A DNA stretch of 50,557 bases. Source: Burkholderiaceae bacterium (lineage in GTDB: Bacteria > Pseudomonadota > Gammaproteobacteria > Burkholderiales > Burkholderiaceae_C). The translations under genes were made by a program, and so were the position numbers. A model generated the notes under the pieces. The model made no database searches. It was not told the DNA's origin and saw only the letters and a program-made list of their open reading frames with translations. The stretch is from assembly GCA_016790515.1 (NCBI GenBank), contig JAEUOY010000007.1, forward strand, positions 1-50,557, in the 5' to 3' direction. Shown here piece after piece: positions 899 to 22,286 of the stretch (positions are counted from its first letter, which is position 1; every line of letters starts with the position of its first letter).

Positions 899-908
899 GG
901 GCCTGAAG

Positions 909-1268: not shown

Positions 1269-1270
1269 CG

Positions 1271-1627: not shown

Positions 1628-1637
1628 AGAGTCCGCG

Positions 1638-1937: not shown

Positions 1938-1977
1938 GCCCAGCCTGGTCCCATCACCCCGACATCTGGAGACGTCA

Positions 1978-2310: not shown

Positions 2311-2344
2311 CCCGGCCAGCGGCACCGCTCCTGCAAAGGGTCGC

Positions 2345-3073
2345 ATGTCTGGGCTCACGATCGGCTACGCGCTGCTGTTCTATGCCGCGACCGCCGTGCT
2401 GGTGGTCGGGCTGGCGCTGAAGATCCGCGTCTATGCGCGCACGCCTTCGCCGCTGAAGATCGCGACGACGCCGGCGCCGGTCACGCGCGGCGGCGTGGCC
2501 TTGCGGCTGCTGCGCGAGGTGGTGCTGTTCGAGAGCCTGTTCAAGTCCAGCAAGTGGACCTGGGCCTTCGGTTGGCTGTTCCATGCCGGCCTGCTGCTGG
2601 TGCTGCTGCGCCACCTGCGCTACTTCCAGCAGCCGGTGTGGACGCCGGTGGTCTGGGTGCAGTTCATCGGCACCTACGCCGGCTTCGCGCTGGTCGCTGG
2701 CCTGGCTGGGTTGTGGGCGCGGAGGGTCCTGGTCGACCGCGTGCGCTACATCTCGACGCCGTCGGACCACCTGCACCTGGCGCTGTTGCTGGCGATCGGC
2801 CTGTCGGGCCTGGCGATGCGCTTCGTTGCCCCCACCGACATCGTCGCGTTGAAGGCCTTCACGCTCGGGCTGATGCGTTTCGACTGGCAGCCGCTGCCGG
2901 CCGACCCGCTGCTGCTGCTGCACCTGACGCTGGTCGCGCTGCTGATGTTCGTGTTCCCGATCAGCAAGCTGCTGCATGCGCCGGGCCTGTTCTTCAGCCC
3001 GACGCGCAACCAGGTCGACAACCCGCGCGAGGCGCGCCACGTCACGCCCTGGGCCGAGGCGGTGGGGAAATAG
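2345..3073 (+). CDS. dsrM: DsrM, diheme cytochrome b membrane subunit of DsrMKJOP
   Basis: 242 aa from the ATG at 2345, preceded by AAAGGG. NarI-like integral membrane protein that passes electrons between DsrK and the quinone pool. About five hydrophobic helices are visible. Candidate heme b ligands His80/His90 (spacing 10) and His193/His211 (spacing 18) reproduce the spacings of NarI; a further His pair occurs in SDHLHLA at 142/144. The stop is one base before the dsrK start, so the two are translationally coupled. Shorter than some DsrM of sulfate reducers, but normal for sulfur oxidizers. Confidence 0.94.
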   Translation: MSGLTIGYALLFYAATAVLVVGLALKIRVYARTPSPLKIATTPAPVTRGGVALRLLREVVLFESLFKSSKWTWAFGWLFHAGLLLVLLRHLRYFQQPVWTPVVWVQFIGTYAGFALVAGLAGLWARRVLVDRVRYISTPSDHLHLALLLAIGLSGLAMRFVAPTDIVALKAFTLGLMRFDWQPLPADPLLLLHLTLVALLMFVFPISKLLHAPGLFFSPTRNQVDNPREARHVTPWAEAVGK

Positions 3074-3074
3074 C

Positions 3075-4571: not shown

Positions 4572-4589
4572 ACCCAACGGAGACATTCC

Positions 4590-5879: not shown

Positions 5880-5914
5880 ACCGCTGACCGCGCCCCACCC
5901 GAGGAGATTGCCCG

Positions 5915-7873: not shown

Positions 7874-7878
7874 GCACG

Positions 7879-8274
7879 ATGCGGCCTCGCGCACTGCGTG
7901 CCGTGCTGCTGGCGCTGCTGGCCGCCGGCGCGATCGCCGCGCCGTCGGGTGGCGTTCGCACGCCGGTGCCGGCGGTCGAGCCGGCGCTGCAGGGCCCCTG
8001 CATCGCCGATCCGGCAACGATGCGCCGCCAGCATCCCGACATGCTGCGCCACCAGCGCGACGAGACCGTGCACCAGGGCATTCGCGGCGCCAAGGCCAGC
8101 CTGCAGGGCTGCATCCGCTGCCATGCCAGCAAGACGACCGGCAGCGTCGCGGCCGCGAAGACCGACTTCTGCGTCGCCTGCCACAGCTACGCCGCGGTCA
8201 AGGTCGACTGTTTCGAATGCCATGCGAGCCGGCCGAAGGGCCTGGCCGCGAACCACGGAGCGGCCAGGCCATGA
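7879..8274 (+). CDS. dsrJ: DsrJ, periplasmic triheme cytochrome c
   Basis: 131 aa from the ATG at 7879. Periplasmic subunit of DsrMKJOP. The hydrophobic N-terminus (residues 5-20) is a signal or signal anchor. Three heme c sites are present: CIRCH at 78-82, CVACH at 98-102 and CFECH at 111-115. Cys41 in QGPCIAD corresponds to the free cysteine that gives one heme its unusual His/Cys ligation in characterised DsrJ. The stop overlaps the dsrO start as ATGA. Confidence 0.95.
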   Translation: MRPRALRAVLLALLAAGAIAAPSGGVRTPVPAVEPALQGPCIADPATMRRQHPDMLRHQRDETVHQGIRGAKASLQGCIRCHASKTTGSVAAAKTDFCVACHSYAAVKVDCFECHASRPKGLAANHGAARP

Positions 8275-9011
8275 CGCCCGGATCGCTGCAAGGCCTGGCG
8301 GGCCGCCGCAAGTTCCTCGGGCTGGCCGCCGCCGGCATGGCCGGCGTGGTGCTGGCGCCGGGCATCCACCTGATCGAGGTTGCGCAGGCAGCCACCGGCC
8401 CGGTGACGTCCAAGGTCCGCTGGGGCCTGCTGATCGACACCACGAAGTGCCGGGCCGGCTGCACCGACTGCGTCAGCGCCTGCAATACCGAGAACGGGCT
8501 GTCGGGCAAGACCGGGCCGACCGATGCGCAGTGGATCCGCAAGGTCGAGATCAGGGAGATCAAGACCGGCCGCACCTCGTCGCTGCCGGTGATGTGCCAG
8601 CACTGCGCCGAGCCGCCCTGCGTCGACGTCTGCCCGACCGGCGCTTCGTTCAAGCGCACCGACGGCATCGTGCTGGTCGATCGCCACAGCTGCATCGGCT
8701 GCCGCTACTGCATGATGGCCTGCCCCTACAAGGCGCGCTCGTTCGTGCACGAGCCGCTGACCGGCCAGAAGCCCGAGGTGCCACGCGGCAAGGGCTGCGT
8801 CGAGGGCTGCACGCTGTGCGTGCACCGCGTCGACAGGGGCCAGGGCCCGGCCTGCGTCGAGGCCTGCGCCAAGGCCGGCCACCACGCGATGCTGTTCGGC
8901 GACCTGAACGACCCCGCCAGCGAGATCTCGCGCCGCGTGCGCGAACTGGCCAGCACGCAGCTGCGCGCGGACCTGAGGCTCGACCCCGGCGTGCGCTACC
9001 AGGGGCTGTGA
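8271..9011 (+). CDS. dsrO: DsrO, Tat-exported iron-sulfur subunit
   Basis: 246 aa starting at the ATGA overlap with dsrJ; longer upstream starts would lie inside dsrJ and dsrL and are rejected. The twin-arginine signal GRRKFLGLAAAGMAG is followed by a cleavable region ending near AQA, so the protein acts in the periplasm. Four ferredoxin cysteine groups are visible: CRAGCTDCVSAC, CQHCAEPPCVDVC, CIGCRYCMMACPY and CTLCVHRV with a later CVEAC. It passes electrons between DsrJ and the quinone-reactive DsrP. Confidence 0.95.
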   Translation: MTPGSLQGLAGRRKFLGLAAAGMAGVVLAPGIHLIEVAQAATGPVTSKVRWGLLIDTTKCRAGCTDCVSACNTENGLSGKTGPTDAQWIRKVEIREIKTGRTSSLPVMCQHCAEPPCVDVCPTGASFKRTDGIVLVDRHSCIGCRYCMMACPYKARSFVHEPLTGQKPEVPRGKGCVEGCTLCVHRVDRGQGPACVEACAKAGHHAMLFGDLNDPASEISRRVRELASTQLRADLRLDPGVRYQGL

Positions 9012-9012
9012 G

Positions 9013-10221
9013 ATGAGCGACTCCCGCGCACCCTTCCGGCGGCTCGAAGAGCGGCTGTTCTACGGGCTGCTGGCGATCGGTGGCCTGGTCACGCTGGTCG
9101 GCCTGGCCGCTGCCCACCACATGGAGACCGAGGGCCACATCGCCACCGGCATGAGCAACCAGGTGGTCTGGGGCCTGCCGCATGTGTTCGCGATCTTCAT
9201 GATCGTCGCCGCCTCGGGCGTGCTCAACATCGCCTCGATCGGCTCGGTGTTCGGCCAGGCCGCCTACAAGCCGCGCGCGCCGCTGTCGGGGCTGCTGTCG
9301 CTGGCGCTGCTGGCCGGCGGGCTGATGGTGCTGATGCTCGACCTGGGCCGGCCTGAGCGGGTGATCGTCGCCGCCACCCACTACAACTTCAGGTCGATGT
9401 TCGCGTGGAACGTCTTCCTCTACTCGGGCATGGCGGCGATCGTCGCGATCTACCTGTGGACGATGTTCGAGCGGCGCATGAATCCGTACGCCCGCGCCGC
9501 CGGCATCGCCGCGCTGGTCTGGCGCTTCGCGCTGACCACCGGCACCGGGTCGATCTTCGGCTTCCTCGTCGCCCGCCAGGCCTACGCGTCGGCGGTGCTG
9601 GCGCCGCTGTTCATCGTGCTGTCGTTCGGCTGGGGCCTGGCGGTGTTCCTGATCGTGCAGTCGGTGATGTACGCGTGGAACGGCCAGGTGCTGCCCGAGG
9701 CCATCGCCCGGCGCATGGCCAGGCTGCTGGCGGTGTTCGTCGCCGCGTCGCTGTACCTGGTGTTCGTCTACCACGCGACCAACCTGTACTTCGCACGCCA
9801 GACCGCGTTCGAGGCCTTCATCCTGCTCGGACGCGGCGATCCCTCGGGGATGTTCGTGTCGCTGTTCTGGGTCGGCTACCTGGGGCTCGGCAGCCTGCTG
9901 CCGCTCGTGCTGCTGTTCCATCCACGCCTCGCCTCGCCGCGCGGCACGCTGGCGGCCTGCGCACTGGTGGTGCTGGGTGCCTTTGCCTTCCTGTTCGTCT
10001 TCATCATCGGCGGCCAGGCCTTCCCGCTCGAGATCTTCCCCGGCCATCAGGTCAGCAGTTCGTTCGCCGATGGCGCGGTCGAGATCTACCGCCCGCGGCT
10101 GCCCGAATGGCTGCTCGGCTTCGGCGGGCTGGGGCTGGCTTTCGTGCTGACGGCAGTGGGCATGCGCGCGCTCGACTTCCTGCCGCAGGACGACTTCGCG
10201 CTGCTGGCGTCAAAGGATTGA
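9013..10221 (+). CDS. dsrP: DsrP, NrfD/PsrC-family quinone-interacting membrane subunit
   Basis: 402 aa, highly hydrophobic with about ten membrane helices (for example residues 15-35, 50-75, 90-110, 130-155). No cofactor motif is seen, as expected for the family. It couples DsrJO to the quinone pool. It starts one base after the dsrO stop and is followed 4 bases later by dsrN. Order J-O-P-N is the same as in A. vinosum. Confidence 0.94.
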   Translation: MSDSRAPFRRLEERLFYGLLAIGGLVTLVGLAAAHHMETEGHIATGMSNQVVWGLPHVFAIFMIVAASGVLNIASIGSVFGQAAYKPRAPLSGLLSLALLAGGLMVLMLDLGRPERVIVAATHYNFRSMFAWNVFLYSGMAAIVAIYLWTMFERRMNPYARAAGIAALVWRFALTTGTGSIFGFLVARQAYASAVLAPLFIVLSFGWGLAVFLIVQSVMYAWNGQVLPEAIARRMARLLAVFVAASLYLVFVYHATNLYFARQTAFEAFILLGRGDPSGMFVSLFWVGYLGLGSLLPLVLLFHPRLASPRGTLAACALVVLGAFAFLFVFIIGGQAFPLEIFPGHQVSSSFADGAVEIYRPRLPEWLLGFGGLGLAFVLTAVGMRALDFLPQDDFALLASKD

Positions 10222-10225
10222 GTCG

Positions 10226-11647
10226 ATGACGCGGCCCGCGCTGATGATTTCCGCCGCCCACAAGTCGTCGGGCAAGACGACGCTGACGCTGGGCCTGGCC
10301 GCCGCGTTCGCGGCGCGCCGCGTCGCGGTGCAGACCTTCAAGAAGGGCCCCGACTACATCGACCCGATCTGGCTCGCACTGGCCAGCGGCCGGCCCTGCT
10401 TCAACCTCGATGCCTACCTGATGGGCGAGGCCGCGGTGAATTCGAGCTATGCCCGCCATGCCGCCGGCGCCGATCTGGTGCTGGTCGAGGGCAACAAGGG
10501 ACTGTACGACGGCCTGGCGTTGGACGGCAGCAACAGCAATGCCGCGCTGGCCGGGCAGCTGGGTCTGCCGGTGGTGCTGGTGATCGACGCGCGCGGCATG
10601 ACCCGCGGCGTCGCGCCGCTGATCCTCGGCTACCAGGCCTTCGACCGCACGATCCGCATCGCCGGAGTGATCCTGAACCGGCTCGGCGGCAGCCGCCACG
10701 AAGCCAAGCTGCGCGCGGTGATCGAGCATTACACCGACGTGCCGGTGCTCGGCGCGGTGCAGCACGACGACCGGCTGGCGGTGACCGAGCGCCACCTCGG
10801 GCTGGTGCCGGCGTCCGAGCTGGCCGACGCGGCGCAGCAGGTGCGCGCGCTGGCCGCCGCGGTCGAGTCGCAAGTCGACCTCGACCGGCTGCAGGCCGCC
10901 GCGGCAACGGCGCTGCCGGTGGCCTCCGAGGCCGTGGGACCGCCGTCTGCCGCCGGCCGCCGGCTTCGCATCGGCATCGCGCGCGACCGCGCCTTCGGCT
11001 TCTACTACGCCGACGACCTGCTCGCGCTCGAAGCGGCCGGCGCGCAGCTGGTCGCGATCGACACGCTCGCCGACACCCGGCTGCCGGCGCTCGACGGCCT
11101 GTTCATCGGCGGCGGCTTCCCCGAGGTGCACATGGCCGCGCTGTCGGCCAACACCGCGCTGCGCCAGGCGCTGCGCGAGGCGATCGCCGCCGGGCTGCCG
11201 AGCTATGCCGAATGCGGCGGGCTGATGTTCCTCGCGCGCTCGCTGCGCTGGAACGGACGCTGCCTGCCGATGGTCGGCGCGATCCCGGGCGACGTGGTGA
11301 TGCACGAGCGCCCGGTGGGCCGCGGCTACGTGCACCTGCAGGAAACGGGCGAGATGCCCTGGCCGGGCGGCGGCCCTGCCACCGCGGTGCGCGCGCATGA
11401 GTTCCACCATTCGAGCCTCGACAACCTGGGGCCCGACGCCCGCTTCGCCTACCGCGTGCAGCGCGGGCACGGCATCGACGGACGACACGACGGCGTCGTC
11501 GTCGGCCAGCTGCTGGCCTCGTACGCGCACCGCCACAGCGCCGGCCCCGACGGCTGGGCGCCGCGCTTCATGGCCCATGTACTGCAGCAGCGCCAGGCAC
11601 GGCAACGCGCCGCACGGCCGTCGCGACACGAAGCGCTGGCCGCTTGA
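10226..11647 (+). CDS. dsrN: DsrN, siroheme amidase (cobyrinate a,c-diamide synthase family)
   Basis: 473 aa. Glutamine-dependent amidation of siroheme to the siro(heme)amide of DsrAB. The N-terminal ATPase domain has the P-loop AAHKSSGKTTLTLGL and FKKGPDYIDPIW, as in CobB/CbiA. The C-terminal glutamine amidotransferase domain carries Cys330 in YAECGGLMFL and EFHHSS near the end. Its place in the operon and the methyltransferase at 12449 support a siroheme rather than cobalamin role; other cobalamin genes are absent in the window. Confidence 0.93.
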   Translation: MTRPALMISAAHKSSGKTTLTLGLAAAFAARRVAVQTFKKGPDYIDPIWLALASGRPCFNLDAYLMGEAAVNSSYARHAAGADLVLVEGNKGLYDGLALDGSNSNAALAGQLGLPVVLVIDARGMTRGVAPLILGYQAFDRTIRIAGVILNRLGGSRHEAKLRAVIEHYTDVPVLGAVQHDDRLAVTERHLGLVPASELADAAQQVRALAAAVESQVDLDRLQAAAATALPVASEAVGPPSAAGRRLRIGIARDRAFGFYYADDLLALEAAGAQLVAIDTLADTRLPALDGLFIGGGFPEVHMAALSANTALRQALREAIAAGLPSYAECGGLMFLARSLRWNGRCLPMVGAIPGDVVMHERPVGRGYVHLQETGEMPWPGGGPATAVRAHEFHHSSLDNLGPDARFAYRVQRGHGIDGRHDGVVVGQLLASYAHRHSAGPDGWAPRFMAHVLQQRQARQRAARPSRHEALAA

Positions 11648-11658
11648 GGAGACTCGCG

Positions 11659-12030
11659 ATGTCGATCGACGCCACCATCAGCGACAGCGGCATCCGCCGG
11701 CTGCCCGTCGGCGACCGGTTCGTCGAGACCGACAGCGAGGGCTACCTGCGCCGGCTCGACGACTGGTCCGAGGACTTTGCGCGCGCCCAGGCCGAGTCCG
11801 AAGGGCTGACGCTGACCGACGCCCATTGGCAGATCGTGCGCTTTCTGCGCAGCTGGTTCCACGAGCACGGCGTGCAGGCCCAGGTGCGGGTGATGATCCG
11901 CCACTTCAGCGAGGCCTGGGGGCCCGAACGCGGCAGCAACCACGCGCTGCACGACCTGTTCCCGAATGGCGGTCCGCAGAAGCAGGGCAACCGCATCGCC
12001 GGACTGCTGCGCACCAAGGGCGAACACTGA
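11659..12030 (+). CDS. DsrC/TusE-family paralogue without cysteines (RspA type)
   Basis: 123 aa from the ATG at 11659 (RBS GAGGAG); an upstream TTG overlapping the dsrN stop is less likely. The fold is clearly DsrC-like: FVETDSEGYLRRLDDWSEDFA, LTDAHWQIVRFLRSWF and the conserved KQ..RIAGL arm. Aligning that arm with the real DsrC puts Asn111 at the Cys98 position and Glu122 at the Cys109 position, and no cysteine exists anywhere in the protein. It therefore cannot carry persulfide. Cysteine-free members of the family have been grouped as RspA and suggested to be regulatory. A structural or competitor role in the DsrC interaction network is my inference. Confidence 0.88.
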   Translation: MSIDATISDSGIRRLPVGDRFVETDSEGYLRRLDDWSEDFARAQAESEGLTLTDAHWQIVRFLRSWFHEHGVQAQVRVMIRHFSEAWGPERGSNHALHDLFPNGGPQKQGNRIAGLLRTKGEH

Positions 12031-12055
12031 ACCCGCCATCCCAGGAGACCCGACC

Positions 12056-12403
12056 ATGTTCTCGATGTCCCGCAGCGCCGCCGCCGAGATCCTCGCCGCC
12101 GCCGAGCGCAGCGATGCCGCCGGCTTGGCCCTGCGCATCGCCGCGCGCCGCGAGGCCGACGGCTCGATCGGCTACGGCATGGGCTTCGACGACCACCGCG
12201 AGCGCGACAGCGCGCTCGAGTTCGCCGGGCTGCAGGTGCTGATCGCGCCGCCCAGCCTGCCGCTGCTGCAGGACACGGTGCTCGACTACGTCGAGCTCGC
12301 GCCCGGCCGGTTCGATTTCGTCTTTGCCGAAGGCGGGGCGCCGGCGCCCGAACCCGCCCCGGGCGGCTGCGGCAGCGGCGGTTGCAGCCGCTGCGGCGGT
12401 TGA
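12056..12403 (+). CDS. dsrR: DsrR, A-type carrier-like protein with a C-terminal cysteine tail
   Basis: 115 aa from the ATG at 12056 after AGGAGA. DsrR is an IscA-like protein described as acting after transcription in dsr expression. The IscA-type beta fold is recognisable (GYGMGFDDHRERDSALEFAGLQVLIAP, then LLQDTVLDYVELAPGRFDFVF). A. vinosum DsrR lacks the metal-ligand cysteines of IscA. Here the body also lacks them, but a proline/glycine-rich tail after residue 95 ends with Cys105, Cys110 and Cys113 (CX4CX2C). Whether the tail binds iron, zinc or a cluster is unknown. Confidence 0.8.
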   Translation: MFSMSRSAAAEILAAAERSDAAGLALRIAARREADGSIGYGMGFDDHRERDSALEFAGLQVLIAPPSLPLLQDTVLDYVELAPGRFDFVFAEGGAPAPEPAPGGCGSGGCSRCGG

Positions 12404-12448
12404 ACCCGGACCCGATGATCCGATGACCCGAGGACCGGACCCCGCACC

Positions 12449-13297
12449 ATGAACACCGTCGTCGACTTCCCGTTTTCCAGGCCGTGCGGATCGAACGGCA
12501 TCGGCCATGTCAGCCTGGTCGGCGCCGGCCCCGGCGACGCCGAACTGCTGACGCTGCGCGCGGTGCGCCTGCTGCGCGACGCCGACGTCGTCGTCTACGA
12601 CCACCTGGTGTCGGCCGAGGTGCTGGACTTCATCGGCCCCGCCGCGCGCCGCCTCTACGTCGGCAAGCAGCGCAACCGGCATTCGATGGTCCAGGACGAC
12701 ATCAACGGCCTGCTGGTGCGGCTGGCGCACGAAGGGCTGCAGGTGGTGCGGCTGAAGGGCGGCGACCCGTTCGTGTTCGGCCGCGGCGGCGAGGAACTGC
12801 AGCATCTGGCAGCCGCCGGCATCGCGTTCGACGTCGTGCCCGGCATCACCGCGGCCTGCGGCGTCGCCAGCCATGCCGGCATCCCGCTGACCCACCGCGA
12901 CCATGCGCAATGCGCGCTGTTCGTCACCGGCCACCTGAAGGACGGCAGCGCCGATCTCGACTGGCCGGCGCTGGCGCGGCCGCGCCAGACCGTGGTGATC
13001 TACATGGGCCTGGGGGCGCTGGCCCAGATCTGCGCCCAGCTGATCGCCCACGGCGCGCCGGCCAGCCTGCCGGCCGCGGTGGTCGAGCAGGGCACGACGG
13101 CGCAGCAGCGCGTCGTCAGTGCGACGCTGGCCGACCTGGCGCCGCGGGTCGCCGAGGCCGGGTTGAAGTCGCCCAGCCTGATCATCGTCGGTGAAGTCGT
13201 CGCGCTGAGCGACGAACTGGCCTGGTTCCTGGCCGATCCGGCGGCTGCGGCGGCTGCGGCGGCCGCGGCGGCGCCGCGCGCCGTGTCGGCCGGCTGA
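12449..13297 (+). CDS. cobA: Uroporphyrinogen-III C-methyltransferase (SUMT)
   Basis: 282 aa. SAM-dependent methylation of uroporphyrinogen III to precorrin-2, the first step to siroheme. Motifs: [54 protein letters not shown] and the GHLKDG segment. The oxidase/ferrochelatase domain of CysG is absent, so another enzyme must finish siroheme. As last gene of the dsr operon it raises cofactor supply for DsrAB together with DsrN. The C-terminal ~18 residues form an alanine-rich extension coded by a short tandem repeat. Confidence 0.93.
13241..13273 (+). repeat. 9-bp tandem repeat coding the poly-alanine tail of cobA
   Basis: Two exact copies of GCGGCTGCG (13241-13249, 13250-13258), a variant GCGGCCGCG (13259-13267) and a partial copy GCGGCG. 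The reading frame is kept because the unit is 9 bases, giving a run of eleven alanines outside the catalytic domain. Copy number may vary between strains without loss of function. Confidence 0.85.
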
Positions 13298-13302
13298 GGG
13301 CT

Positions 13303-14004
13303 TCAGCGGCTCGCGCGCGTGCCCGCGTCGAGCGCGCCGGCCTCGCCGCTGCCGCGCATCTCGACCGCGAACACCGCCGCCTCGACGCGCGAGCTGAGGT
13401 TCAGCTTCGACAGGATGTGGCGAACATGCAGCTTCACGGTGTCGTGGCTGATGTCCAGCGCCCGCGCGATCGCCTTGTTGCTCTCGCCGCGCGACAGGTG
13501 CTCGAGGATCTCGCGCTCGCGCTCGGTCAGCGAGCCCAGCAGGTCGGCCCGGTCGCTGCCCTTGCCGCCGCGCTGCAGCATCTGCGCGAGCTTCAGCGTC
13601 ATCGCCGGGGCGACCGCCAGCTCGCCGCCGGCGGCGCGGGCGATCGCCGCGATCACGTCCTCGGGCTCCATGTCCTTCAGCAGGTAGCCGCGCGCGCCGG
13701 CGCGCAGCGCGGCGGCGAGGTCGGCCTCCGAGTCGCTCATCGTCAGGAACAGTGCCGGCGTCTCGCAGCCCTCGGCGCGCAGCCGGCGCAGCAGCGCCAG
13801 ACCGTCGGTCCCCGGCATGCGCAGGTCGAGCACGACCAGGTCGGGCTTCAGCTCGCGCAGCGCCGGCAGCACGCGTTCGGTGTCGCCCAGCGCGGCGACG
13901 ACCTGCATGTTGCCGCGGTGCTGCAGCAGGTCGGTCAGCCCGTTGCGGCACAGCGCGTGGTCGTCGACCAGCACGATGCGCAGCGGCGCGGAGTTCGCCG
14001 TCAT
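13303..14004 (-). CDS. NarL/FixJ-type response regulator
   Basis: 233 aa. The N-terminal receiver domain has the acidic pair in VLVDDHALCRNG and phospho-acceptor Asp60 in LVVLDLRMPGTDGL. The C-terminal LuxR-type helix-turn-helix reads LTEREREILEHLSRGESNKAIA, then ISHDTVKLHVRHILSKL. It overlaps the kinase gene by ATGA and is its cognate partner. Its 3' end meets cobA with only five bases between the stop codons. Position between the dsr operon and the second DsrMK-like pair suggests it controls one or both; this is not proven. Confidence 0.92.
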   Translation of the reverse strand: MTANSAPLRIVLVDDHALCRNGLTDLLQHRGNMQVVAALGDTERVLPALRELKPDLVVLDLRMPGTDGLALLRRLRAEGCETPALFLTMSDSEADLAAALRAGARGYLLKDMEPEDVIAAIARAAGGELAVAPAMTLKLAQMLQRGGKGSDRADLLGSLTEREREILEHLSRGESNKAIARALDISHDTVKLHVRHILSKLNLSSRVEAAVFAVEMRGSGEAGALDAGTRASR

Positions 14005-15233
14005 GCGCTGGCGCCCGCCGCGGCGGCCGGCGAAACCGGGAAGCGCAGCCGCACCGCGGTGCCGCGGTCGCGCCGCCGGCCGATCTCGATCCGGCCGTGC
14101 AGGCGTCGCGCCCGCTCGCCCATGATCGCCAGGCCGAGGTGGTTCCCACCCGTCACTGCGCCGGCCGGCAGGCCGCTGCCGTCGTCCTCGACGACGATCT
14201 CGACGGCATCGCTGGCGCGGCGGATCGTCAGCCAGGCGTGCTCGGCGCCGGCATGCTTGGTGACGTTGGCCAGCGCCTCCTGCACGATGTGGAAGACCTG
14301 CGACTCCTGGTCGGCCGCCAGGTCCAGGTCGGGCACCGGATCGACGAACTGCAGCTCGACGCCGCTGCGCAGGCGGAAGCTGGCCGCGGCCACCTCCAGC
14401 GCATGGCGCAGCCCCTGCGGGTCGGCCGGGCTGTGCAGATGGGTCAGGATCTGGCGCAGCCCGATGTGCGCCTCGCTGACCGCCTGGCGCACGTCGGCGC
14501 ACCAGCGCAGCGAATTCGCGTCGTCGTGGTCGGCGATCGCCTGTTCGAGCAGCGGCATGCGCATCTTCGCGAAGGCCAGCGACTGGGCGACGGCGTCGTG
14601 CACCTCGGCGGCCATGCCCTGGCGCTCGCGGTTCAGCGTGGCGCGCAGGTTTTCCTGCTCGAGCCGGGCGTTGTCCAACGCCAGGCCCAGCAGCTCGCCG
14701 ACCGATTTCAGGATTGCCCGGATCGGGGCAGCGGGCTCCGCGGCCTGCTCGAAGAACAGGTTGTAGACCCCGAGCAGCCGGCCGCGGTGCTGCAGCGGCA
14801 CGACCAGCATCGCGCGGCAATCGTGGCCGAAGAAACCGCCCGCACCGTGCGCGGCGCAGCCGCTCAGGCGGTCGGTCCAGACCAGCTGCCGGGCGTCGGC
14901 GGCCACGCCGCAGTGGCCGCAATGGCGCTGCGACTGGCCATCGGGCCCGCAGGCGCCGGTGGGCACGCCGAGGCTGCCGACCAGCTCGAAACGCGTGCCG
15001 TCCTCCGACAGCGTACGCACCGCACCGGCCTGGGCCCCGGCCAGGTCGACGATCGGCGGCAGGAAGCGCCGCAGCAGCGCGGCGAGGTCGTGCCCGACCG
15101 ACACCCCGGCGGTGATGTCGGCCAGGATGCCGGCCATCGGCGCCGCGGCGTCGAGGGCACCGTCACGTTCGGCGGCCGGCAGGTCACGATTCGATTCGGG
15201 GGTCGACAAAGGCTGGATCCCTTCCGCCCGCAT
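14001..15233 (-). CDS. NarX-like GAF-domain sensor histidine kinase, soluble
   Basis: 410 aa. No membrane helix is visible, so it probably senses a cytoplasmic signal. A GAF domain spans about residues 45-195 and holds five cysteines: 95, 105, 108 (CGHC), 126 and 139. HisKA_3 dimerisation region follows with His212 in AAEVHDAVAQSLAFAK. The HATPase domain has ANVTKHAG and DDGSGLPAGAV...GLAIMGERARRL. The kinase class is that of NarX/NreB. The cysteines could bind a cluster or react with sulfur species; some cysteines in this GAF type are common in betaproteobacterial NarX relatives, so sensing by them is only a possibility. Confidence 0.9.
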   Translation of the reverse strand: MRAEGIQPLSTPESNRDLPAAERDGALDAAAPMAGILADITAGVSVGHDLAALLRRFLPPIVDLAGAQAGAVRTLSEDGTRFELVGSLGVPTGACGPDGQSQRHCGHCGVAADARQLVWTDRLSGCAAHGAGGFFGHDCRAMLVVPLQHRGRLLGVYNLFFEQAAEPAAPIRAILKSVGELLGLALDNARLEQENLRATLNRERQGMAAEVHDAVAQSLAFAKMRMPLLEQAIADHDDANSLRWCADVRQAVSEAHIGLRQILTHLHSPADPQGLRHALEVAAASFRLRSGVELQFVDPVPDLDLAADQESQVFHIVQEALANVTKHAGAEHAWLTIRRASDAVEIVVEDDGSGLPAGAVTGGNHLGLAIMGERARRLHGRIEIGRRRDRGTAVRLRFPVSPAAAAGASA

Positions 15234-15377: not shown

Positions 15378-15391
15378 TTGATCCGCATCAA
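15378..15391 (+). promoter_or_regulatory. Perfect FNR/Anr-type binding site upstream of the DsrM-like gene
   Basis: TTGATCCGCATCAA is an exact match to the FNR consensus TTGAT-N4-ATCAA. A candidate -10 TATCGT lies at 15414-15419, giving a transcription start near 15426, which places the site centre (15384.5) close to -41.5, the class II activator position. The start codon follows at 15483. The rest of the 249-base gap 15234-15482 shows no gene; it also holds the upstream region of the minus-strand kinase gene. Confidence 0.8.
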
Positions 15392-15482
15392 TCCCCGACC
15401 ACCGCCCGCGGCCTATCGTCGTTCGCCGTCGTCGGCCGCATCCGGCGCCCGATGGCGTACCTGATCGTCGCCGAGGACAGTC

Positions 15483-16166
15483 ATGGACCTGCTCGCCTTC
15501 GCCCGCGGCCCGGCGCTCGCCTTCTCGCTCGCCGTCTTCGCGCTCGGCACGCTCTGGCGCCTGGTGCACCTGTGGCGGCGGCCGCGCCTGCCCGACCTGT
15601 CACCGCCGCGCGAGGGCGCGCCGCCGCGCTGGCGCGGCGCAGTGAACGGCGTGCTCAGCGGCCTGTGGCCGCGCCGGGCCTTCGGTCAGCGCACCGCTCT
15701 GGCGACGGCCAACGGCTATGCCTTCCACCTCGGGCTGGCGCTGATCGTCTTCGGCTATGCGCCGCACATCGCCTTCGTGCAGCGCCTGACCGGCCTCGCC
15801 TGGCCGGCGCTGCCCGACCCGGTGATGTACCTGGCCGCCGCGGTCACCATCGTGTCGCTGCTGCTGGCCATCGCGATGCGCATCGCCGATCCGGTGCTAC
15901 GGCTGATCTCGAACGCCGACGACCGCATCAGCTGGGCCCTGACGCTGCTGCCGGTGCTGACCGGCATGGCCGTGATCGGCGAGCCGTCGGCCACGATCCT
16001 GGCGCGCGGGCAGGTGGTCTACGGCGGCCCGCTGGCGCTGCACCTGCTGTCGCTGGAGCTGCTGCTGATCTGGTTCCCGTTCGGTAAGCTGATGCATGCG
16101 CTGCTGTTCGTGTTCTCGCGCGGGGCCACCGGCATCCGCTTCAGCCACCGGGGAGTGAAGCTGTGA
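15483..16166 (+). CDS. DsrM/NarI-like cytochrome b membrane subunit
   Basis: 227 aa. Paralogue of DsrM: its C-terminal FPFGKLMHALLF matches FPISKLLHAPGLFF of DsrM. His187 and His205 keep the spacing of 18 seen in DsrM and NarI; His82 and His95 are the likely partners, with a spacing of 13 instead of 10. The SDHLHLA histidines of DsrM are replaced by DRISW here. Five hydrophobic helices are visible. The gene overlaps the next one by GTGA, so the pair forms a quinone-linked complex. It is not accompanied by J, O or P homologues. Confidence 0.87.
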   Translation: MDLLAFARGPALAFSLAVFALGTLWRLVHLWRRPRLPDLSPPREGAPPRWRGAVNGVLSGLWPRRAFGQRTALATANGYAFHLGLALIVFGYAPHIAFVQRLTGLAWPALPDPVMYLAAAVTIVSLLLAIAMRIADPVLRLISNADDRISWALTLLPVLTGMAVIGEPSATILARGQVVYGGPLALHLLSLELLLIWFPFGKLMHALLFVFSRGATGIRFSHRGVKL

Positions 16167-17473
16167 ACACCGCCGCCACCGAACACCCCGCCAGGCCGAC
16201 CTTCGACCGCCAGGGTCCGCTCAGCGACGAGCAGCGGGTCGAGGCTGCGATGCGCAGCTTCGTGCGCGAATTCGGCCGCACCACGGCGCTGCACCTGGAG
16301 ACCTGCGTGCACTGCGGCCTGTGTGCCGACGCCTGCCAGTTCCACGTCAGCACCGGCGAGGCGAAGTACACGCCGATCCACAAGCTGCTGCCGCTGCGCC
16401 GCGCCTACGCGCGCGAGGCCGGGCCGTTCGCGCCGCTGGTGCGTGCGCTGGGCCTGGTCAAGCCGCTCGGCGTCACCGAGCTCGAGCAGTGGCAGGAATT
16501 GATCTACGACTCGTGCACGATGTGCGGGCGCTGCACCACCGTCTGCCCGATGGGCATCGACATCGCCGAGCTGGTCAAGGAGGCACGCCACGGCATGTTC
16601 AAGGCCGGCCTGGTGCCCGAGCGGCTGGCGCTGATGGACCGCACCGCGCGGCAATGGGGCAGCACCGCGACGCCGGGCGAGGACCTGCCCGACATCCTGC
16701 AGGAGGCGGCCGCCGAGCATGGCGTCGAGATCCCCTGCGACCTGGCCGCAGCCGAGATACTGGTGACTGCCGCGCCGGCCGAACTGGGCGAACACACCCG
16801 GGCGCTGGCCGCCGCCGCCAAGGTGCTGAACCGCGCCGGCGTGCGCTGGACGATGCACAGCGAGGGCTTCGACGCCGCGAACGTCGGCTTCAACAACGGC
16901 GACCTGGAGCTTCAGGAACGGCTGACGCGCTCGATCATCGATACCGCGCTGAAGATCGGCGCCAGGACCGTGCTGCTGCCCGAATGCGGCCATGCCTACG
17001 GCGCGGCGCGCTGGGAGGCGGCGAAGTGGTACGGCCGCGACCTGCCGCTGCGCATCGTCCACATGACCGAGTTCCTCGACGAGCTGATCGCCGGCGGCCG
17101 CATCCGGGTCAAGCCGGTCGGCCAGAGCGCGACCTTCCACGACCCCTGCCAGATCGTTCGCCGCGGCGGGCTGGAGGCGGCGGCGCGCCGGGTCCTCGCC
17201 GCGCTCGGCTTCCAGCTGATCGAGCTGCAGGACCACGGCCTCACCGGCTGGTGCTGCGGCGGTGGCGGCGGCGTGGTCTCCAACGTCCGTGCCGCGCCGC
17301 TGCGCCAGAAGGTGTTCGAGATCAAGCGCGCGCAGGTCGAGGCGACCGGCGCGCAGCGCTTCGTCACCAGTTGCGGCCAGTGCCGCATCACGCTGGAGAT
17401 GGGCGCCAGGCAGGTGCAATGGGGCAGGCCGGTCGAAAGCCTGCTGGAACTGGTGGCCGACAACCTGGACTGA
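16163..17473 (+). CDS. DsrK/HdrD-like CCG-domain iron-sulfur protein
   Basis: 436 aa, GTG start at the GTGA overlap with the DsrM-like gene. Two [4Fe-4S] motifs: Cys48/51/54/58 (CVHCGLCADAC) and Cys118/121/124/128P (CTMCGRCTTVCP). Two CCG domains: PECGHAYGAARW in the first; HDPCQIVRRGG, GWCCGGGGGVVS and SCGQCRIT in the second. The build is that of DsrK, HdrD and TmcB. It would exchange electrons between a thiol/disulfide or persulfide substrate and the quinone pool through its partner. The substrate is unknown; DsrC or another sulfur carrier is plausible because of the neighbours. Confidence 0.88.
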   Translation: MNTAATEHPARPTFDRQGPLSDEQRVEAAMRSFVREFGRTTALHLETCVHCGLCADACQFHVSTGEAKYTPIHKLLPLRRAYAREAGPFAPLVRALGLVKPLGVTELEQWQELIYDSCTMCGRCTTVCPMGIDIAELVKEARHGMFKAGLVPERLALMDRTARQWGSTATPGEDLPDILQEAAAEHGVEIPCDLAAAEILVTAAPAELGEHTRALAAAAKVLNRAGVRWTMHSEGFDAANVGFNNGDLELQERLTRSIIDTALKIGARTVLLPECGHAYGAARWEAAKWYGRDLPLRIVHMTEFLDELIAGGRIRVKPVGQSATFHDPCQIVRRGGLEAAARRVLAALGFQLIELQDHGLTGWCCGGGGGVVSNVRAAPLRQKVFEIKRAQVEATGAQRFVTSCGQCRITLEMGARQVQWGRPVESLLELVADNLD

Positions 17474-17708: not shown

Positions 17709-20621
17709 ATGCCGGCCCCACCGCTGCACGACCCGCTGGCCGCGCCCGTTCCCGGCGCGAGCAGCGAGGTGCGCACGACCACCTGCTACATGTGCGCCTG
17801 CCGCTGCGGCATCCGGGTGCACCTGCGCAACGGCGAAGTGCGCTACATCGAGGGCAACCCTGAGCACCCGCTGAACAAGGGCGTGATCTGCGCCAAGGGC
17901 TCGTCGGGGATCATGAAGCAGTACTCGCCGGCGCGGCTGACGCAGCCGCTCAAGCGCAAGCCCGGCACCGAGCGCGGCGCCGGCGAGTTCGTCGAGATCG
18001 GCTGGGACGAGGCCTTCGCGACGCTCGAGGAGCGGCTGGCCCATCTGCGCGCGACCGACCCGAAGAAGTTCGCGCTGTTCACCGGCCGCGACCAGATGCA
18101 GGCGCTGACCGGGCTGTTCGCGCGCCAGTTCGGCACGCCCAACTACGCGGCGCATGGCGGCTTCTGCTCGGTCAACATGGCTGCCGGGATGATCTACACG
18201 ATCGGCGGATCGTTCTGGGAGTTCGGCGGGCCCGACCTGGACCGCGCCCGGCTGTTCGTGATGATCGGCACCGCCGAGGACCACCACAGCAACCCGATGA
18301 AGACGGCGCTGGCCAAGTTCAAGCGCCAGGGCGGCAAGTTCATCGCGGTCAACCCGATCCGCACCGGCTACGCGGCGATCGCCGACGAGTGGATCCCGAT
18401 CAAGCCGGGCACCGACGGCGCGCTGCTGCTGGCGCTGATCCACGAGATCATCGCGCTGGGCCTGTACGACCGTGAGTTCCTCGCCCGCTACACCAATGCC
18501 GGCCAGCTGGTCAACCAGGACGCGGCCAGCGACGAGTTCGGCCTGATGCTGCGCAATGCCGAGGGCGACATCGTCAACCCGCTGCGGCCGCACAACTTCT
18601 TCTGGTGGGACCGGCTGACGCAGCAGCCGGTGGCCGACCATGCCGAAGGCGCCGACCCGGCGCTGCTCGGCCGCTTCAGCCTTCCCGACGGCAGGCCGGC
18701 GGTGCCGGCGTTCCAGTTGCTGGAAGAGCGCGTCAAGCCCTACACGCCCGAATGGGCGGCCGGCATCACCGGGATCCCGGCGGCGACGATCCGCCGGCTG
18801 GCGCGCGAGATGGGCATCACCGCGCGCGACCAGAAGATCGAGCTGCCGATCCAGTGGACCGACTGCTGGGGCCGGCAGCACGACAGCGTGACCGGCAACC
18901 CGGTCGCCTTCCACGCGATGCGCGGGCTGGCGGCGCACAGCAACGGCTTTCAGACGATCCGTTCGCTGGCGATCCTGATGAGCCTGCTCGGCACGATCGA
19001 CCGCCCGGGCGGCTTTCGCCACAAGGCGCCGTACCCGCGTGCGGTACCGCCGAACGCCCGCCCGCCCAAGGGCCCCGAGGCGGTCAAGCCGAACACCCCG
19101 CTGAACGGCGCGCCGCTGGGCTGGCCCGAGAGCCCCGACGACCTGTTCGTCGACGCGGCCGGCGAGCCGGTGCGCATCGACAAGGGCTTCTCGTGGGAGC
19201 ACCCGCTGTCGGCGCACGGGCTGATGCACAACGTGATCACCAACGCCTGGCGCGGCGACCCGTACCGCATCGACACGCTGCTGATCTTCATGGCCAACAT
19301 GGCCTGGAACTCGACGATGAACACGTCCGAGGTCCGCACCATGCTCAACGACAAGGGCGAGGACGGCGAGTACAAGATCCCGTTCCTGGTCGTCTGCGAC
19401 GCCTTCCACAGCGAGATGACGGCGTTTGCCGACCTGCTGCTGCCCGACACCACCTACCTCGAGCGGCACGACTGCATGTCGATGCTGGACCGGCCGATCT
19501 CCGAGTTCGACGGGCCGGTTGACTCGGTGCGCGTGCCGGTGCTGCCGCCCACCGGCCAGTGCAAGCCGTTCCAGGAGGTGCTGGTCGAACTGGCCTCGCG
19601 GCTGAAGTTCCCGGCCTTCGTCAACGCCGATGGGACGCGCAGGTTCCGCGACTACCCCGACTTCGTCGTCAACTACGAGACCGCGCCGGGCTCGGGCATC
19701 GGCTTCCTCGCCGGCTGGCGCGGCAAGGGTGGCGAGAAGTTGATGCGCGGCGAGCCGAACCCGCGCCAGTGGGAGATGTACGCGAAGAACAACTGCGTCT
19801 TCCAGCACCACCTGCCGCCGTCGATCCAGTACATGCGCAACTGGAACCAGGGCTACATGGACTGGGCCCAGCAGGCCGGGCTGCGGCGCGACCGCGACCC
19901 GATCGTGATCCACCTGTACTCGGAGTTCCTGCAGCGCTTCCGCCTGGCCGCAGAGGGCAAGCACAAGGGCAAGCAACCGCCCGACCGGCTGCGCGAGCGG
20001 GTGAAGACCTACTTCGACCCGCTGCCGTTCTTCTACGCCCCGCTCGAACAACTGGCCACCGACACGACGAAGTTCCCGCTCAACGCGGTGACGCAGCGGC
20101 CGATGGCGATGTACCACTCCTGGGACTCGCAGAACGCCTGGCTGCGCCAGATCCACACGCACAACTACCTGTTCGTCAACACCCGCACCGCGCTGGCGGC
20201 GGGCATCGCCGACGACGCCTGGATGTGGGTCGAGTCGCCCTGGGGCAAGGTGCGCTGCCTGTGCCGGCACAGTGAGGCGGTCGAGCCGGGCACGGTCTGG
20301 ACCTGGAACGCGATCGGCAAGGCCGCGGGGGCCTGGCACCTCGAGCCCGGCGCCAACGAGTCGCGGCGCGGCTTCCTGCTGAACCACCTGATCAAGGAGG
20401 AACTGCCGGCCGCCGGCGGCGGCGCGCCGCTGTCGAATTCCGACCCGATCACCGGCCAGGCCGCCTGGTACGACGTGCGCGTGCGCATTTACCCGGCCGC
20501 GCCCGGCGAGCCGGCCGAGAGCTGGCCCCAGTTCGCGGCGATGAAGCCGGTGCCCGGGATGGGCGAGACACCGAAGAGGCTGCGCGGCTGGATGGCGGGC
20601 CGGATGAAGGTGAAGCCATGA
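17709..20621 (+). CDS. soeA: SoeA, molybdopterin subunit of sulfite:quinone dehydrogenase
   Basis: 970 aa, DMSO reductase superfamily. Oxidizes sulfite to sulfate. No Tat signal is present, which places the enzyme in the cytoplasm as expected for SoeABC and unlike Psr/Phs. The N-terminal [4Fe-4S] motif is CYMCACRC (Cys-X2-Cys-X3-Cys) with the fourth cysteine in VICAKG. Cys153 in GGFCSVN is the probable molybdenum ligand. Further molybdopterin-binding segments run through the middle (MIGTAEDHHSNPMKTALAKFK) and the C-terminal domain (MAMYHSWDSQNAWLRQIHTHN). It overlaps soeB by ATGA. Polysulfide or thiosulfate reductase is the alternative reading, less likely without an export signal. Confidence 0.9.
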   Translation: MPAPPLHDPLAAPVPGASSEVRTTTCYMCACRCGIRVHLRNGEVRYIEGNPEHPLNKGVICAKGSSGIMKQYSPARLTQPLKRKPGTERGAGEFVEIGWDEAFATLEERLAHLRATDPKKFALFTGRDQMQALTGLFARQFGTPNYAAHGGFCSVNMAAGMIYTIGGSFWEFGGPDLDRARLFVMIGTAEDHHSNPMKTALAKFKRQGGKFIAVNPIRTGYAAIADEWIPIKPGTDGALLLALIHEIIALGLYDREFLARYTNAGQLVNQDAASDEFGLMLRNAEGDIVNPLRPHNFFWWDRLTQQPVADHAEGADPALLGRFSLPDGRPAVPAFQLLEERVKPYTPEWAAGITGIPAATIRRLAREMGITARDQKIELPIQWTDCWGRQHDSVTGNPVAFHAMRGLAAHSNGFQTIRSLAILMSLLGTIDRPGGFRHKAPYPRAVPPNARPPKGPEAVKPNTPLNGAPLGWPESPDDLFVDAAGEPVRIDKGFSWEHPLSAHGLMHNVITNAWRGDPYRIDTLLIFMANMAWNSTMNTSEVRTMLNDKGEDGEYKIPFLVVCDAFHSEMTAFADLLLPDTTYLERHDCMSMLDRPISEFDGPVDSVRVPVLPPTGQCKPFQEVLVELASRLKFPAFVNADGTRRFRDYPDFVVNYETAPGSGIGFLAGWRGKGGEKLMRGEPNPRQWEMYAKNNCVFQHHLPPSIQYMRNWNQGYMDWAQQAGLRRDRDPIVIHLYSEFLQRFRLAAEGKHKGKQPPDRLRERVKTYFDPLPFFYAPLEQLATDTTKFPLNAVTQRPMAMYHSWDSQNAWLRQIHTHNYLFVNTRTALAAGIADDAWMWVESPWGKVRCLCRHSEAVEPGTVWTWNAIGKAAGAWHLEPGANESRRGFLLNHLIKEELPAAGGGAPLSNSDPITGQAAWYDVRVRIYPAAPGEPAESWPQFAAMKPVPGMGETPKRLRGWMAGRMKVKP

Positions 20622-21346
20622 CGCAGCTGGCGCTGGTCATCGACCTCAACGTCTGCGTCGGCTGCCATGCCTGCGTGACGAGCTGCAAGCAGTGGAACAC
20701 CTCGGGCTCGGCCGGACCGCTGAACGACTTCGACCCCTACGGCAGCGACCCGAACGGCACCTTCTTCAACCGGGTGCAGACCTTCGAGGTCGGCGAGTAC
20801 CCGAACACCCAGACGGTGCATTTCCCGAAGAGCTGCCTGCACTGCGAAGACCCGCCCTGCGTGCCGGTGTGCCCGACCGGCGCGAGCTACAAGCGCAAGG
20901 AGGACGGCATCGTCCTCGTCGACTACGACAAGTGCATCGGCTGCAAGTACTGCAGCTGGGCCTGCCCCTACGGCGCGCGCGAGCTCGACGAGGACCGCAA
21001 GGTGATGACCAAGTGCACGCTGTGCGTCGACCGGGTCACCGACAAGGCGCTGCCCGAGGCCGAGCGCAAGCCGGCCTGCGTGCTGGCCTGCCCGACCAAT
21101 GCGCGGCTGTTCGGCGACGTGCACGACCCGGCCTCGGTGGTCTCGCAGGCGATCGCCGACCGCGCCGGCTACCCGCTGATGCCCGAGTGGGGCACCCGCC
21201 CGGCCAATCACTACCTGCCGCGGCGCCGCACCACGATCACCCTGCATGCCGAGGACCTGCAGCGCATCGACAACCCGCTGAAGGTCGACGGCCGGCAGCC
21301 CGAACCCGCCCACCCCGTGCCCGGCCGCGAAGACTTCGCGACCTGA
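20618..21346 (+). CDS. soeB: SoeB, ferredoxin-type iron-sulfur subunit
   Basis: 242 aa, cytoplasmic. Four [4Fe-4S] groups in the DmsB pattern: CVGCHACVTSC, CLHCEDPPCVPVC, CIGCKYCSWACPY, and CTLCVDRV with CVLACP. It moves electrons from SoeA to SoeC. Starts at the ATGA overlap with soeA and ends 7 bases before soeC. Confidence 0.92.
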   Translation: MTQLALVIDLNVCVGCHACVTSCKQWNTSGSAGPLNDFDPYGSDPNGTFFNRVQTFEVGEYPNTQTVHFPKSCLHCEDPPCVPVCPTGASYKRKEDGIVLVDYDKCIGCKYCSWACPYGARELDEDRKVMTKCTLCVDRVTDKALPEAERKPACVLACPTNARLFGDVHDPASVVSQAIADRAGYPLMPEWGTRPANHYLPRRRTTITLHAEDLQRIDNPLKVDGRQPEPAHPVPGREDFAT

Positions 21347-21353
21347 AGCCAGC

Positions 21354-22286
21354 ATGCAGCCTGCCCTCTCCGTCATCCTGCTGACCACGCTGATCGGCGC
21401 CGGCCAGGGCCTGTTCCTCGCGCTGTACGCGGCCGAGCTGGCCGGCTGGGGCGGCACCGCGTCGCCCGAGAGCCACACCGTGCTGGCCCTCGGTGCGGCG
21501 GTCTCGGTGCTGCTCAGCGGCCTCGGCCTGCTGGCCTCGTTCTTCCACCTCGGCCACCCCGAGCGCGCCTGGCGCGCCGCGGCGATGTGGCGCAGTTCGT
21601 GGTTGTCGCGCGAGGTCATCGTGCTGCCGCTGTTCATGGCCGCCACCTTCGCCTGGGGCGCCGCCCATGCGCTGGCGCTGCCGGGCACCGGCTGGCTGGG
21701 CGCCGCGGCGGCAGGGCTGTGCGTCGCGCTGTTCGTCAGCACCGGCATGGTCTACGCGTCGATCCGCTTCCTGCAGGAATGGGCCAGCCCGCTGACGCTG
21801 CTGAACTACGGCCTGCTCGGCTGCGCCTCGGGGGCCACGCTGGCCGCGGCGATGGCCAGCCTGGCGGCGCCGTCGCTGGTCGGCGCCTTCGTCGCCGCCG
21901 CCGTGCCGCTGACGCTGCTGGGGCTGGTCTCGCGCTCGGCGTCGCTGCTGCGCAATGCGCGGCTGAAGCCGAAGTCGACGCTGCAGAGCGCGATCGGCAT
22001 CCGCCACCCGAAGATCACTCAGCGTGCGCAGGGCTTCATGGGCGGCTCGTACAACACCCGCGAGTTCTTCCACGGCCGCGGCGCGCCGCTGCTGCGCTCG
22101 GTCAAGTGGTTCTTCCTCGCCGCCGCGTTCGTGCTGCCGGTGGCGATGATGCTGGCCGGCCCGGCGTCCAGCGGCTGGCTGATCGCCGCCTTCGCGACCC
22201 AGTTCGTCGGGCTGATGGCCGAGCGCTGGTTCTTCTTCGCGCAGGCCAACCACCCGCAGAACCTGTACTACCAGGCGATCTCCTGA
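21354..22286 (+). CDS. soeC: SoeC, DmsC-type membrane anchor
   Basis: 310 aa with about eight membrane helices; DmsC family. It anchors SoeAB and passes electrons to the quinone pool. The N-terminal segment ILLTTLIGAGQGLFLALYA and FFHLGHPERAWRA are family features. The stop is directly followed by the ATG of the exporter gene. Confidence 0.9.
   Translation: MQPALSVILLTTLIGAGQGLFLALYAAELAGWGGTASPESHTVLALGAAVSVLLSGLGLLASFFHLGHPERAWRAAAMWRSSWLSREVIVLPLFMAATFAWGAAHALALPGTGWLGAAAAGLCVALFVSTGMVYASIRFLQEWASPLTLLNYGLLGCASGATLAAAMASLAAPSLVGAFVAAAVPLTLLGLVSRSASLLRNARLKPKSTLQSAIGIRHPKITQRAQGFMGGSYNTREFFHGRGAPLLRSVKWFFLAAAFVLPVAMMLAGPASSGWLIAAFATQFVGLMAERWFFFAQANHPQNLYYQAIS

Follow-up and report, generated by a model that had tools for sequence, protein, structure and literature searches.

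A hydrogenase-free Isp1-Isp2 gene pair beside dsr and soe genes in a Burkholderiaceae bacterium: a candidate quinone-linked disulfide complex

Between a dsr operon and a soeABC-like operon of a Burkholderiaceae bacterium stand two overlapping genes for a membrane protein and an iron-sulfur (Fe-S) protein, and the locus raises the question of which complex they encode and what it does among sulfur-oxidation genes. The window analysed here is the whole stretch of 50,557 nucleotides, which makes up the whole of contig G000:C83 in a draft genome of 5.0 Mb that is 82% complete. The first gene (15483..16166, plus strand) encodes 227 residues with five long predicted helices and four candidate haem ligands, H82, H95, H187 and H205; the second (16163..17473, plus strand) begins with GTG, overlaps the stop of the first by 4 nucleotides, and encodes 436 residues with two 4Fe-4S motifs and a CCG domain (C329, C364, C365, C404 and C407). 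Their GC contents at third codon positions are 0.95 and 0.94, respectively. We find that they are an isp1-isp2 pair of the kind otherwise associated with [NiFe] hydrogenases, standing here without hydrogenase genes.

The first-pass annotation had described the pair as a second DsrMK-like complex without J, O or P partners, made of a CCG/HdrD-type Fe-S protein and a membrane protein. The description of its parts holds, as the reading frames of the window include no J, O or P gene beside the 227- and 436-residue frames, the CCG domain is present, and haem b in the membrane protein is probable; the name, by contrast, gives way to an Isp1-Isp2 pair without hydrogenase, on the evidence of nearest relatives and trees. 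Pfam detected 4Fe-4S and CCG domains in the 436-residue protein and nothing in the 227-residue protein. All NCBIfam matches of the pair stayed under their cut-offs: TmcB (199 of 735 bits), TmcC (89 of 240), HmcF (169 of 750) and HmcE (79 of 275), with the 436-residue protein also reaching 174 of 400 bits for DsrK and 46 of 333 for GlcF. The 227-residue protein did not match the DsrM model, a failure that alone proves little because the window's own DsrM also misses the cut-off (161 of 300); its own DsrK passes (579 bits). The predicted structure of the 227-residue protein (predicted local distance difference test, pLDDT, 88) is nearest to NarI, with a best E of 0.0035, a template-modelling (TM) score of 0.52 and no match below 0.001, and that of the 436-residue protein (pLDDT 92) is nearest to mycobacterial EtfD (TM score 0.73 on the query), then LutA and HdrB.

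On the Methylovirgula plasmid pHY1, a relative of the pair is accompanied by a [NiFe] hydrogenase, whose HynS and HynL were then used as probes. We confirmed 472 relatives, and the loci named here are the best 80 of these, some of them cut by contig ends (L052, L054, L085 and others). Fifty of the best 80 are hydrogenase operons, in the orders hynS-isp1-isp2-hynL or hynS-isp1-hynL-isp2, an arrangement that, in the accessible portions of two published accounts, marks Isp-type (group 1e) hydrogenases (PMC7735108, PMC3325256). Because the nearest relatives sit in operons of this order, we identify the two genes, from their sequences, as isp1 and isp2. The four histidines, putative haem ligands, are kept in 118/118 Isp1 rows, and the two 4Fe-4S motifs and five CCG cysteines are invariant across 31 Isp2 rows. 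The window Isp2 shares 74-80% identity with the closest hydrogenase-linked Isp2 of its clade and 31% with the DsrK of the same window; this identity and the relatives, with the family scores in support, rule out a second DsrMK. The comparison with the TmcB, HmcF and HdrD group of Desulfobacterota uses hidden Markov model scores and one very-long-branch DsrK outgroup.

Neither hynS nor hynL lies beside the pair among the reading frames of the window, and the same is true of 30 of the best 80 loci (hereafter free pairs). In a tree of 118 Isp1 rows the label 'hydrogenase' needs 4 changes (2 forced), and the window falls in a clade of 25 rows with support 100, made up of 24 free rows and a second isp1 of locus L034. 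These 24 rows represent 21 genomes, since L004/G264, L005/G355 and L042/G525 appear twice; L042 and G525 denote one locus, as do L038 and G810. Three further sets of free rows occur in this tree, namely 12 free with 2 formate-dehydrogenase-linked rows (support 98), 4 free with 3 FDH3-type rows (99), and three Woeseiaceae-type rows (99). A tree of 105 Isp2 proteins and one DsrK outgroup, made by a quick method and with the outgroup and L114 on long branches, places the window in a 16-member clade (support 100) of 11 hydrogenase-free and 5 hydrogenase-linked members, and here the label changes 10 times, with at least 8 changes forced by strong branches. (Another Isp2 tree took in two stray DsrK matches, G616dsr and G681dsr, and the broken G695; no count rests on it.) Because the label changes 4 times in the Isp1 tree versus 10 times in the Isp2 tree, the membrane subunit follows the hydrogenase, and the Fe-S subunit seems to have been exchanged.

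The free lineage also differs in the shape of Isp1. The segment between predicted transmembrane helices 4 and 5 (residues 161-187, G161 to H187; 15963..16043, plus strand) has 27 residues in the window and in 24/24 free rows of its clade, versus 19-20 in 69/69 hydrogenase-linked rows. Elsewhere it measures 26-29 residues in the second free clade (12 rows), 27 in two rows linked to formate dehydrogenase N (FDH-N), 16 in seven rows of the FDH3 clade, and 18-19, a hydrogenase-type length, in the three Woeseiaceae-type rows. Between 17 free and 11 hydrogenase-linked close relatives, 8 Isp1 columns are fixed for different residues (window positions 92, 112, 115, 162, 169, 174 as an inserted residue, 183 and 192), mostly at helix ends of the rebuilt face, versus 0 in Isp2. 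Helix order and a positively charged first loop suggest that the segment faces the periplasm, and models of archaeal Isp hydrogenases, in the accessible part of their description, place HynSL outside the membrane (PMC11018855). Isp1 is thus rebuilt on one face, predicted to be the periplasmic one, where the hydrogenase should dock, with haem ligands and Isp2 unchanged.

Some of the named loci combine these genes in other ways. In L034 (7557-13046), a metagenome bin of Rubrivivax SCN 70-15, the order is hynS, isp1, a window-type isp1, isp2 and hynL, which could be either a natural Isp2 exchange or a mis-assembly or chimera. L127 (9640-18140) and L129 carry the pair inside a formate dehydrogenase operon with the same gene order in both; in L127, formate dehydrogenase alpha, beta and gamma, FdhE, SelA and SelB all score over their cut-offs, the order is alpha, beta, gamma, fdhE, selA and the pair with selB nearby, and the alpha reading frame starts at profile position 201, consistent with a selenocysteine codon in frame. 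FDH3-type pairs occur in L094 and L097, with FDH3 beta over its cut-off in L094. Upstream of the free pairs in L051, L052, L053 and L093 lies a gene that groups with the one for a cytochrome b561-like protein in the L094 FDH3 operon, and no recognised formate dehydrogenase gene was found beside these four pairs.

We next considered the company the pair keeps. Among 399 genomes drawn at the level of the order, an Isp2 relative (E <= 1e-60) occurs in 46, dsrB in 84, and both in 36. Flanks were read for 30 of the 46 positive genomes, and because 20 of these 30 are hydrogenase operons, the order-level co-occurrence mostly reflects the already known association of Isp hydrogenases with sulfur oxidation; dsrB is nonetheless present in 7 of the ten free-pair genomes (p 1e-4 versus pair-less genomes). 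Within 399 genomes of its own family, a window-type pair (72-83% identity) occurs in 21, dsrB in 34, and both in 20, so that the co-occurrence with dsr and soeABC that the first-pass annotation had suggested looking for is borne out: dsrB is found in 20/21 genomes with the pair versus 14/378 without it (Fisher p 1e-23, not corrected for relatedness), and soeA is usually present. The count includes the pair of G695 on a partial match and the dsrB of G595 on a partial match under the family cut-off. Eleven of the window-type pairs are in hydrogenase operons (dsrB in 11/11) and 10 are free (dsrB in 9/10; p 8e-10 for the free pairs alone), the only genome without dsrB being G528 (93% complete, 6% contamination); no family genome held two Isp2 matches at E <= 1e-60 among the four candidates scored per genome. 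With all samples combined, dsrB is present in 16/18 genomes with a window-type free pair, the exceptions being G528 and L040. The absence of dsrB from a bin is weak evidence, as L105 carries dsrL-J-O-P-N-R with no dsrB match in its genome. At E <= 1e-200, soeA occurs in 13/17 free window-type genomes besides the window and in 10/11 hydrogenase-linked ones, compared with 1/6 distant free-pair genomes and 0/3 congeners. DsrC with both C-terminal cysteines was present in 13/13 clusters read, window included.

The positions of the pair follow a similar pattern. The slot between a sensor kinase and soeABC holds the pair alone in the window, in L035 (4.7 kb before soeA) and in G622 (8.5 kb before soeA), and a full Isp hydrogenase operon in G595 and G557; in G671 a hydrogenase operon runs behind the kinase until the contig ends. 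The pair also stands behind the kinase in G525 and G754, with soeA on another contig, and some 13 kb past it in G695. A second slot, behind soeABC and an SQR-like gene, is occupied by the pair in G264 and G752 and by a hydrogenase in G689 and G810. Another pair lineage, with 44% Isp2 identity and isp2 before isp1, lies next to dsrN-dsrR-kinase-regulator in L105; in G103 (L111/L125) it follows soeC at a distance of about 9 kb, and the dsr cluster with kinase and regulator is some 37 kb away. Outside dsr-soe clusters, close free pairs have no recurring neighbour except in the sister genomes L040 and L044; what surrounds them is photolyase-related, ExoD/Band7/NfeD, PFK/TGT or abhydrolase genes. 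The pairs of L036, L039, L044 and L047 have no dsr gene within their 10-kb flanks, yet these genomes have dsrB, which argues for a link that is functional rather than merely positional.

Upstream of the pair, TTGATCCGCATCAA (15378..15391, plus strand) is a perfect FNR-type palindrome, 105 nucleotides before the first gene; allowing one mismatch at most, the window holds two matches, compared with an expectation of 0.09. The first-pass annotation had placed this box near -41.5 of a plausible promoter. The box and its class II spacing stand, as the putative -10 element TATCGT (15414..15419, plus strand; 4/6 letters of TATAAT), proposed from sequence and spacing, falls exactly at -12 to -7 if the site centre (15384.5) is 41.5 nucleotides from an assumed start at 15426; a generic sigma-70 scan, however, detected no promoter there. 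The oxygen control it had envisaged finds partial support. The genome encodes a protein of FNR type (L188) whose N-terminus carries a C-x2-C-x5-C cluster, its gene flanked by reading frames that, judged from their translations, look hemN-like and ccoG-like, and in 13/44 hydrogenase-free pairs the 300 bp upstream contain an FNR-type box with no more than one mismatch, compared with an average of 0.2 and a maximum of 2 in 200 dinucleotide shuffles. The 44 include five formate-dehydrogenase-linked pairs and leave out L042 and L085 (upstream side cut off). Among close free pairs, however, the box is found in only 3/18: the window, L035 (one mismatch, same spot at -105) and G528 (perfect, at -113). 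A separate 400-bp scan found it in 8/43 hydrogenase operons, some with the upstream side cut off. Since boxes occur in 13/44 free pairs overall yet in 3/18 close ones, putative FNR control is a recurrent trait of these pairs and not a fixed one, and the box is rejected as a fixed trait of the clade; FNR probably switches the pair on at low oxygen in the window and some relatives. The divergent NarX/NarL-like kinase and regulator, also pointed out at first pass, are present and belong to the dsr cluster rather than to the Isp pair: in G616 and G681 they stay with dsr, with soeA immediately next and the Isp genes on a different contig, which rules them out as a dedicated regulator of the pair.

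What, then, might an Isp complex without its hydrogenase do? Isp1, a membrane protein resembling NarI, is expected to hold two haems b, and its partner on the cytosolic side would be Isp2, an Fe-S/CCG protein of the HdrD/DsrK/TmcB type. When the hydrogenase is present, electrons from periplasmic H2 are thought to pass via Isp1 to Isp2. Because the predicted periplasmic face is rebuilt and the haem ligands, Isp2 and CCG site are unchanged, the job most likely to remain without the H2 end would be transfer between quinone, haem b, Fe-S clusters and a cytosolic disulfide, in which the haems could face the quinone pool at a putative quinone site and the CCG cluster could face DsrC. We therefore put forward, with about even confidence, an Isp1-Isp2 complex uncoupled from H2 that would move electrons between quinone and a DsrC-type cytosolic disulfide. 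Its most likely substrate would be the DsrC disulfide or trisulfide of the adjacent dsr system, and the complex would work beside DsrMKJOP, being used at low oxygen in the window organism. Electrons might flow either way, perhaps with the state of the quinone pool, from DsrC thiols into quinone while sulfur is oxidised, or in reverse when electrons are in excess. Published work, as far as the accessible excerpts go, contains related ideas: that electrons from H2 could pass through the Isp complex to DsrC disulfide and that Allochromatium transcribes isp1-isp2 more strongly on sulfide (PMC5944118), that H2-dependent sulfur respiration is the presumed role of group 1e enzymes (PMC7735108), and that Isp2 resembles heterodisulfide reductase (PMC10892978). 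A wider version, which we offer more tentatively, would see in Isp1-Isp2 a disulfide-reductase base of general use, whose head can be a hydrogenase or a formate dehydrogenase or be missing altogether. In Dsr-type sulfur oxidisers the form without a head, which has an Isp1 lineage of its own, would then be a dedicated, partly FNR-controlled quinone:DsrC oxidoreductase beside DsrMKJOP, able to trade Isp2 with hydrogenase operons.

Several observations weigh against a DsrC-linked role. The window genome already has dsrMK with JOP (2249-10221), 14/34 dsrB genomes of the family are without a window-type pair (two of these have a distant pair), and the topology and haems are predictions. Close free pairs mostly go without an FNR box, as seen above. 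A sister sublineage in the same Isp1 clade (L106, L109 and L113) has dsrB in 0/3, and of the family's six free pairs in the 41-43% tier one comes with it, so that free pairs as such do not need Dsr; those without dsrB perhaps use another carrier.

The alternative that survives best, although we consider it unlikely, is that the hydrogenase has been replaced and not just dropped, with another oxidoreductase docking on the rebuilt Isp1 face or feeding the pair otherwise. Formate dehydrogenase may act so in relatives, where pairs lie inside its operons (L127, L129 and L094) and the linked Isp1 proteins also have changed segments (27 or 16 residues), and an SQR-like flavoprotein is a candidate, its gene adjoining the pair in G264, G752, L037 and L113. 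That the window-clade segment is lengthened to a constant 27 residues and not eroded would fit such a partner. Against this, close free pairs outside dsr-soe clusters share no recurring neighbour, sisters L040/L044 excepted, and the SQR-like gene of the window is 9.6 kb from the pair, inside the dsr operon.

It is improbable that the pair is a passenger, the remnant of a lost hydrogenase operon in the dsr-soe island with no Dsr function. Its place inside that island, and the hydrogenases that fill both slots in other genomes, would suit such an origin, but free Isp1 forms its own clade with fixed changes and intact haem ligands, which is not decay, and the dsrB link persists where the pair lies elsewhere.

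Still less probable is a pair that remains part of a hydrogenase, working with unlinked HynSL. The three Woeseiaceae-type pairs keep an 18-19 residue segment, and two of these three genomes hold an unlinked HynL relative (68% and 58%), as this reading would have it. In the window's own genome, however, an 82% complete draft in which the segment is changed, no close HynL was found and the only large subunit is HoxH-like; nor was a HynL relative of >= 60% found in 10 other window-clade free genomes tested. Two of those 10 have a HynL relative of 55-59%, of a class that also stands beside an Isp enzyme in G408, G409 and G411. With no close HynL in its own draft genome or the 10 close ones, a partner elsewhere was rejected. 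It is scarcely credible that the pair is a strict DsrMK paralogue, or that it serves a flavin dehydrogenase as a partner of the EtfD/GlcF/lactate-oxidase type, since the resemblance of the Isp2 fold to EtfD, LutA and HdrB is set against the 31% versus 74-80% identities, the low DsrK, TmcB and GlcF scores, and an SQR-like gene as the only recurring flavoprotein neighbour.

A quinone-to-disulfide complex of this kind would bear on how isp genes are seen. The accessible part of PMC11018855 describes them as thought exclusive to hydrogenase groups 1e and 1g, always between structural genes, and adds one more case, which also stands next to a hydrogenase. Among the matches listed in our literature search (titles and abstract beginnings, with few subscription papers covered), no description of hydrogenase-free Isp pairs was found. 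Since the hydrogenase half is missing and sulfur-oxidation genes stand alongside, the locus suggests that the electron-handling half of a hydrogen-consuming enzyme has been reused between sulfur carriers and the membrane. If this is right, the complex would separate the disulfide end of the enzyme from its H2 end, provide a natural two-subunit system for testing DsrC as a partner of Isp/DsrK/Tmc-type proteins, and offer a second electron route for reverse-Dsr sulfur oxidation at low oxygen.

The remaining features of the locus set its context. Upstream of the pair, on the plus strand (11..13297), lie dsrB (cut by the contig end), dsrEFHC, dsrM, dsrK, an SQR-like gene, dsrL-J-O-P-N, dsrC2, dsrR and cysG; some of these dsr names are presumptive, assigned from gene order. 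There follow, on the minus strand, a LuxR-type response regulator (about 13303-14004, from reading frames and locus comparison) and a GAF histidine kinase (14001..15233, from domain searches and locus comparison), both neighbours that belong to the dsr cluster, and beyond the pair the soeABC-like molybdoenzyme operon (17709..22286, plus strand). The kinase has GAF, HisKA_3 and HATPase domains and reaches 136 of 553 bits for NarQ and 119 of 578 for NarX, below both cut-offs; its GAF-domain cysteines 105, 108, 126 and 139 are kept in 14 to 16 of 16 rows, and the domain could serve the dsr cluster as a sensor of the metal, Fe-S or thiol kind. Between dsrN and dsrR, a second DsrC-like protein (11644-12030) is without the two C-terminal cysteines, as in 9/9 family clusters read, window included, and could be a regulatory or scaffold DsrC. 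The SQR-like flavoprotein gene between dsrK and dsrL (4590-5879) scores far under the type III SQR cut-off; besides adjoining the four free pairs named above (G264 being also L004), its relatives lie near hydrogenase operons in L038/G810 and G689.

Set against known systems, the pair resembles the Isp pairs in formate dehydrogenase operons (L127, L129, L094 and L097) in being hydrogenase-free with an altered Isp1 segment, and differs in that those are tied to formate dehydrogenase and belong to other Isp1 clades. With TmcBC/HmcEF of sulfate reducers, its best NCBIfam matches, it has in common a two-subunit core without JOP, although it scores far under their cut-offs and no further Tmc- or Hmc-type gene was seen beside it. 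Like DsrMK of DsrMKJOP, it combines a NarI-type membrane protein with an HdrD-type Fe-S protein and has a presumed exchange with DsrC, but it is only 31% identical to the window DsrK, stays under the NCBIfam DsrK cut-off, and shares the window with a true dsrMK. Closest is the Isp1-Isp2 of group 1e [NiFe] hydrogenases (Thiocapsa, Allochromatium and Acidithiobacillus), with the same family, isp1-isp2 order, four haem histidines, CCG cysteines, chromosomal slot and dsr company; unlike it, the window pair is a two-gene unit of its own, with no hynS, hynL or maturation genes beside it, and its Isp1 carries 8 fixed changes and a segment of 27 residues where the hydrogenase-linked form has 19-20.

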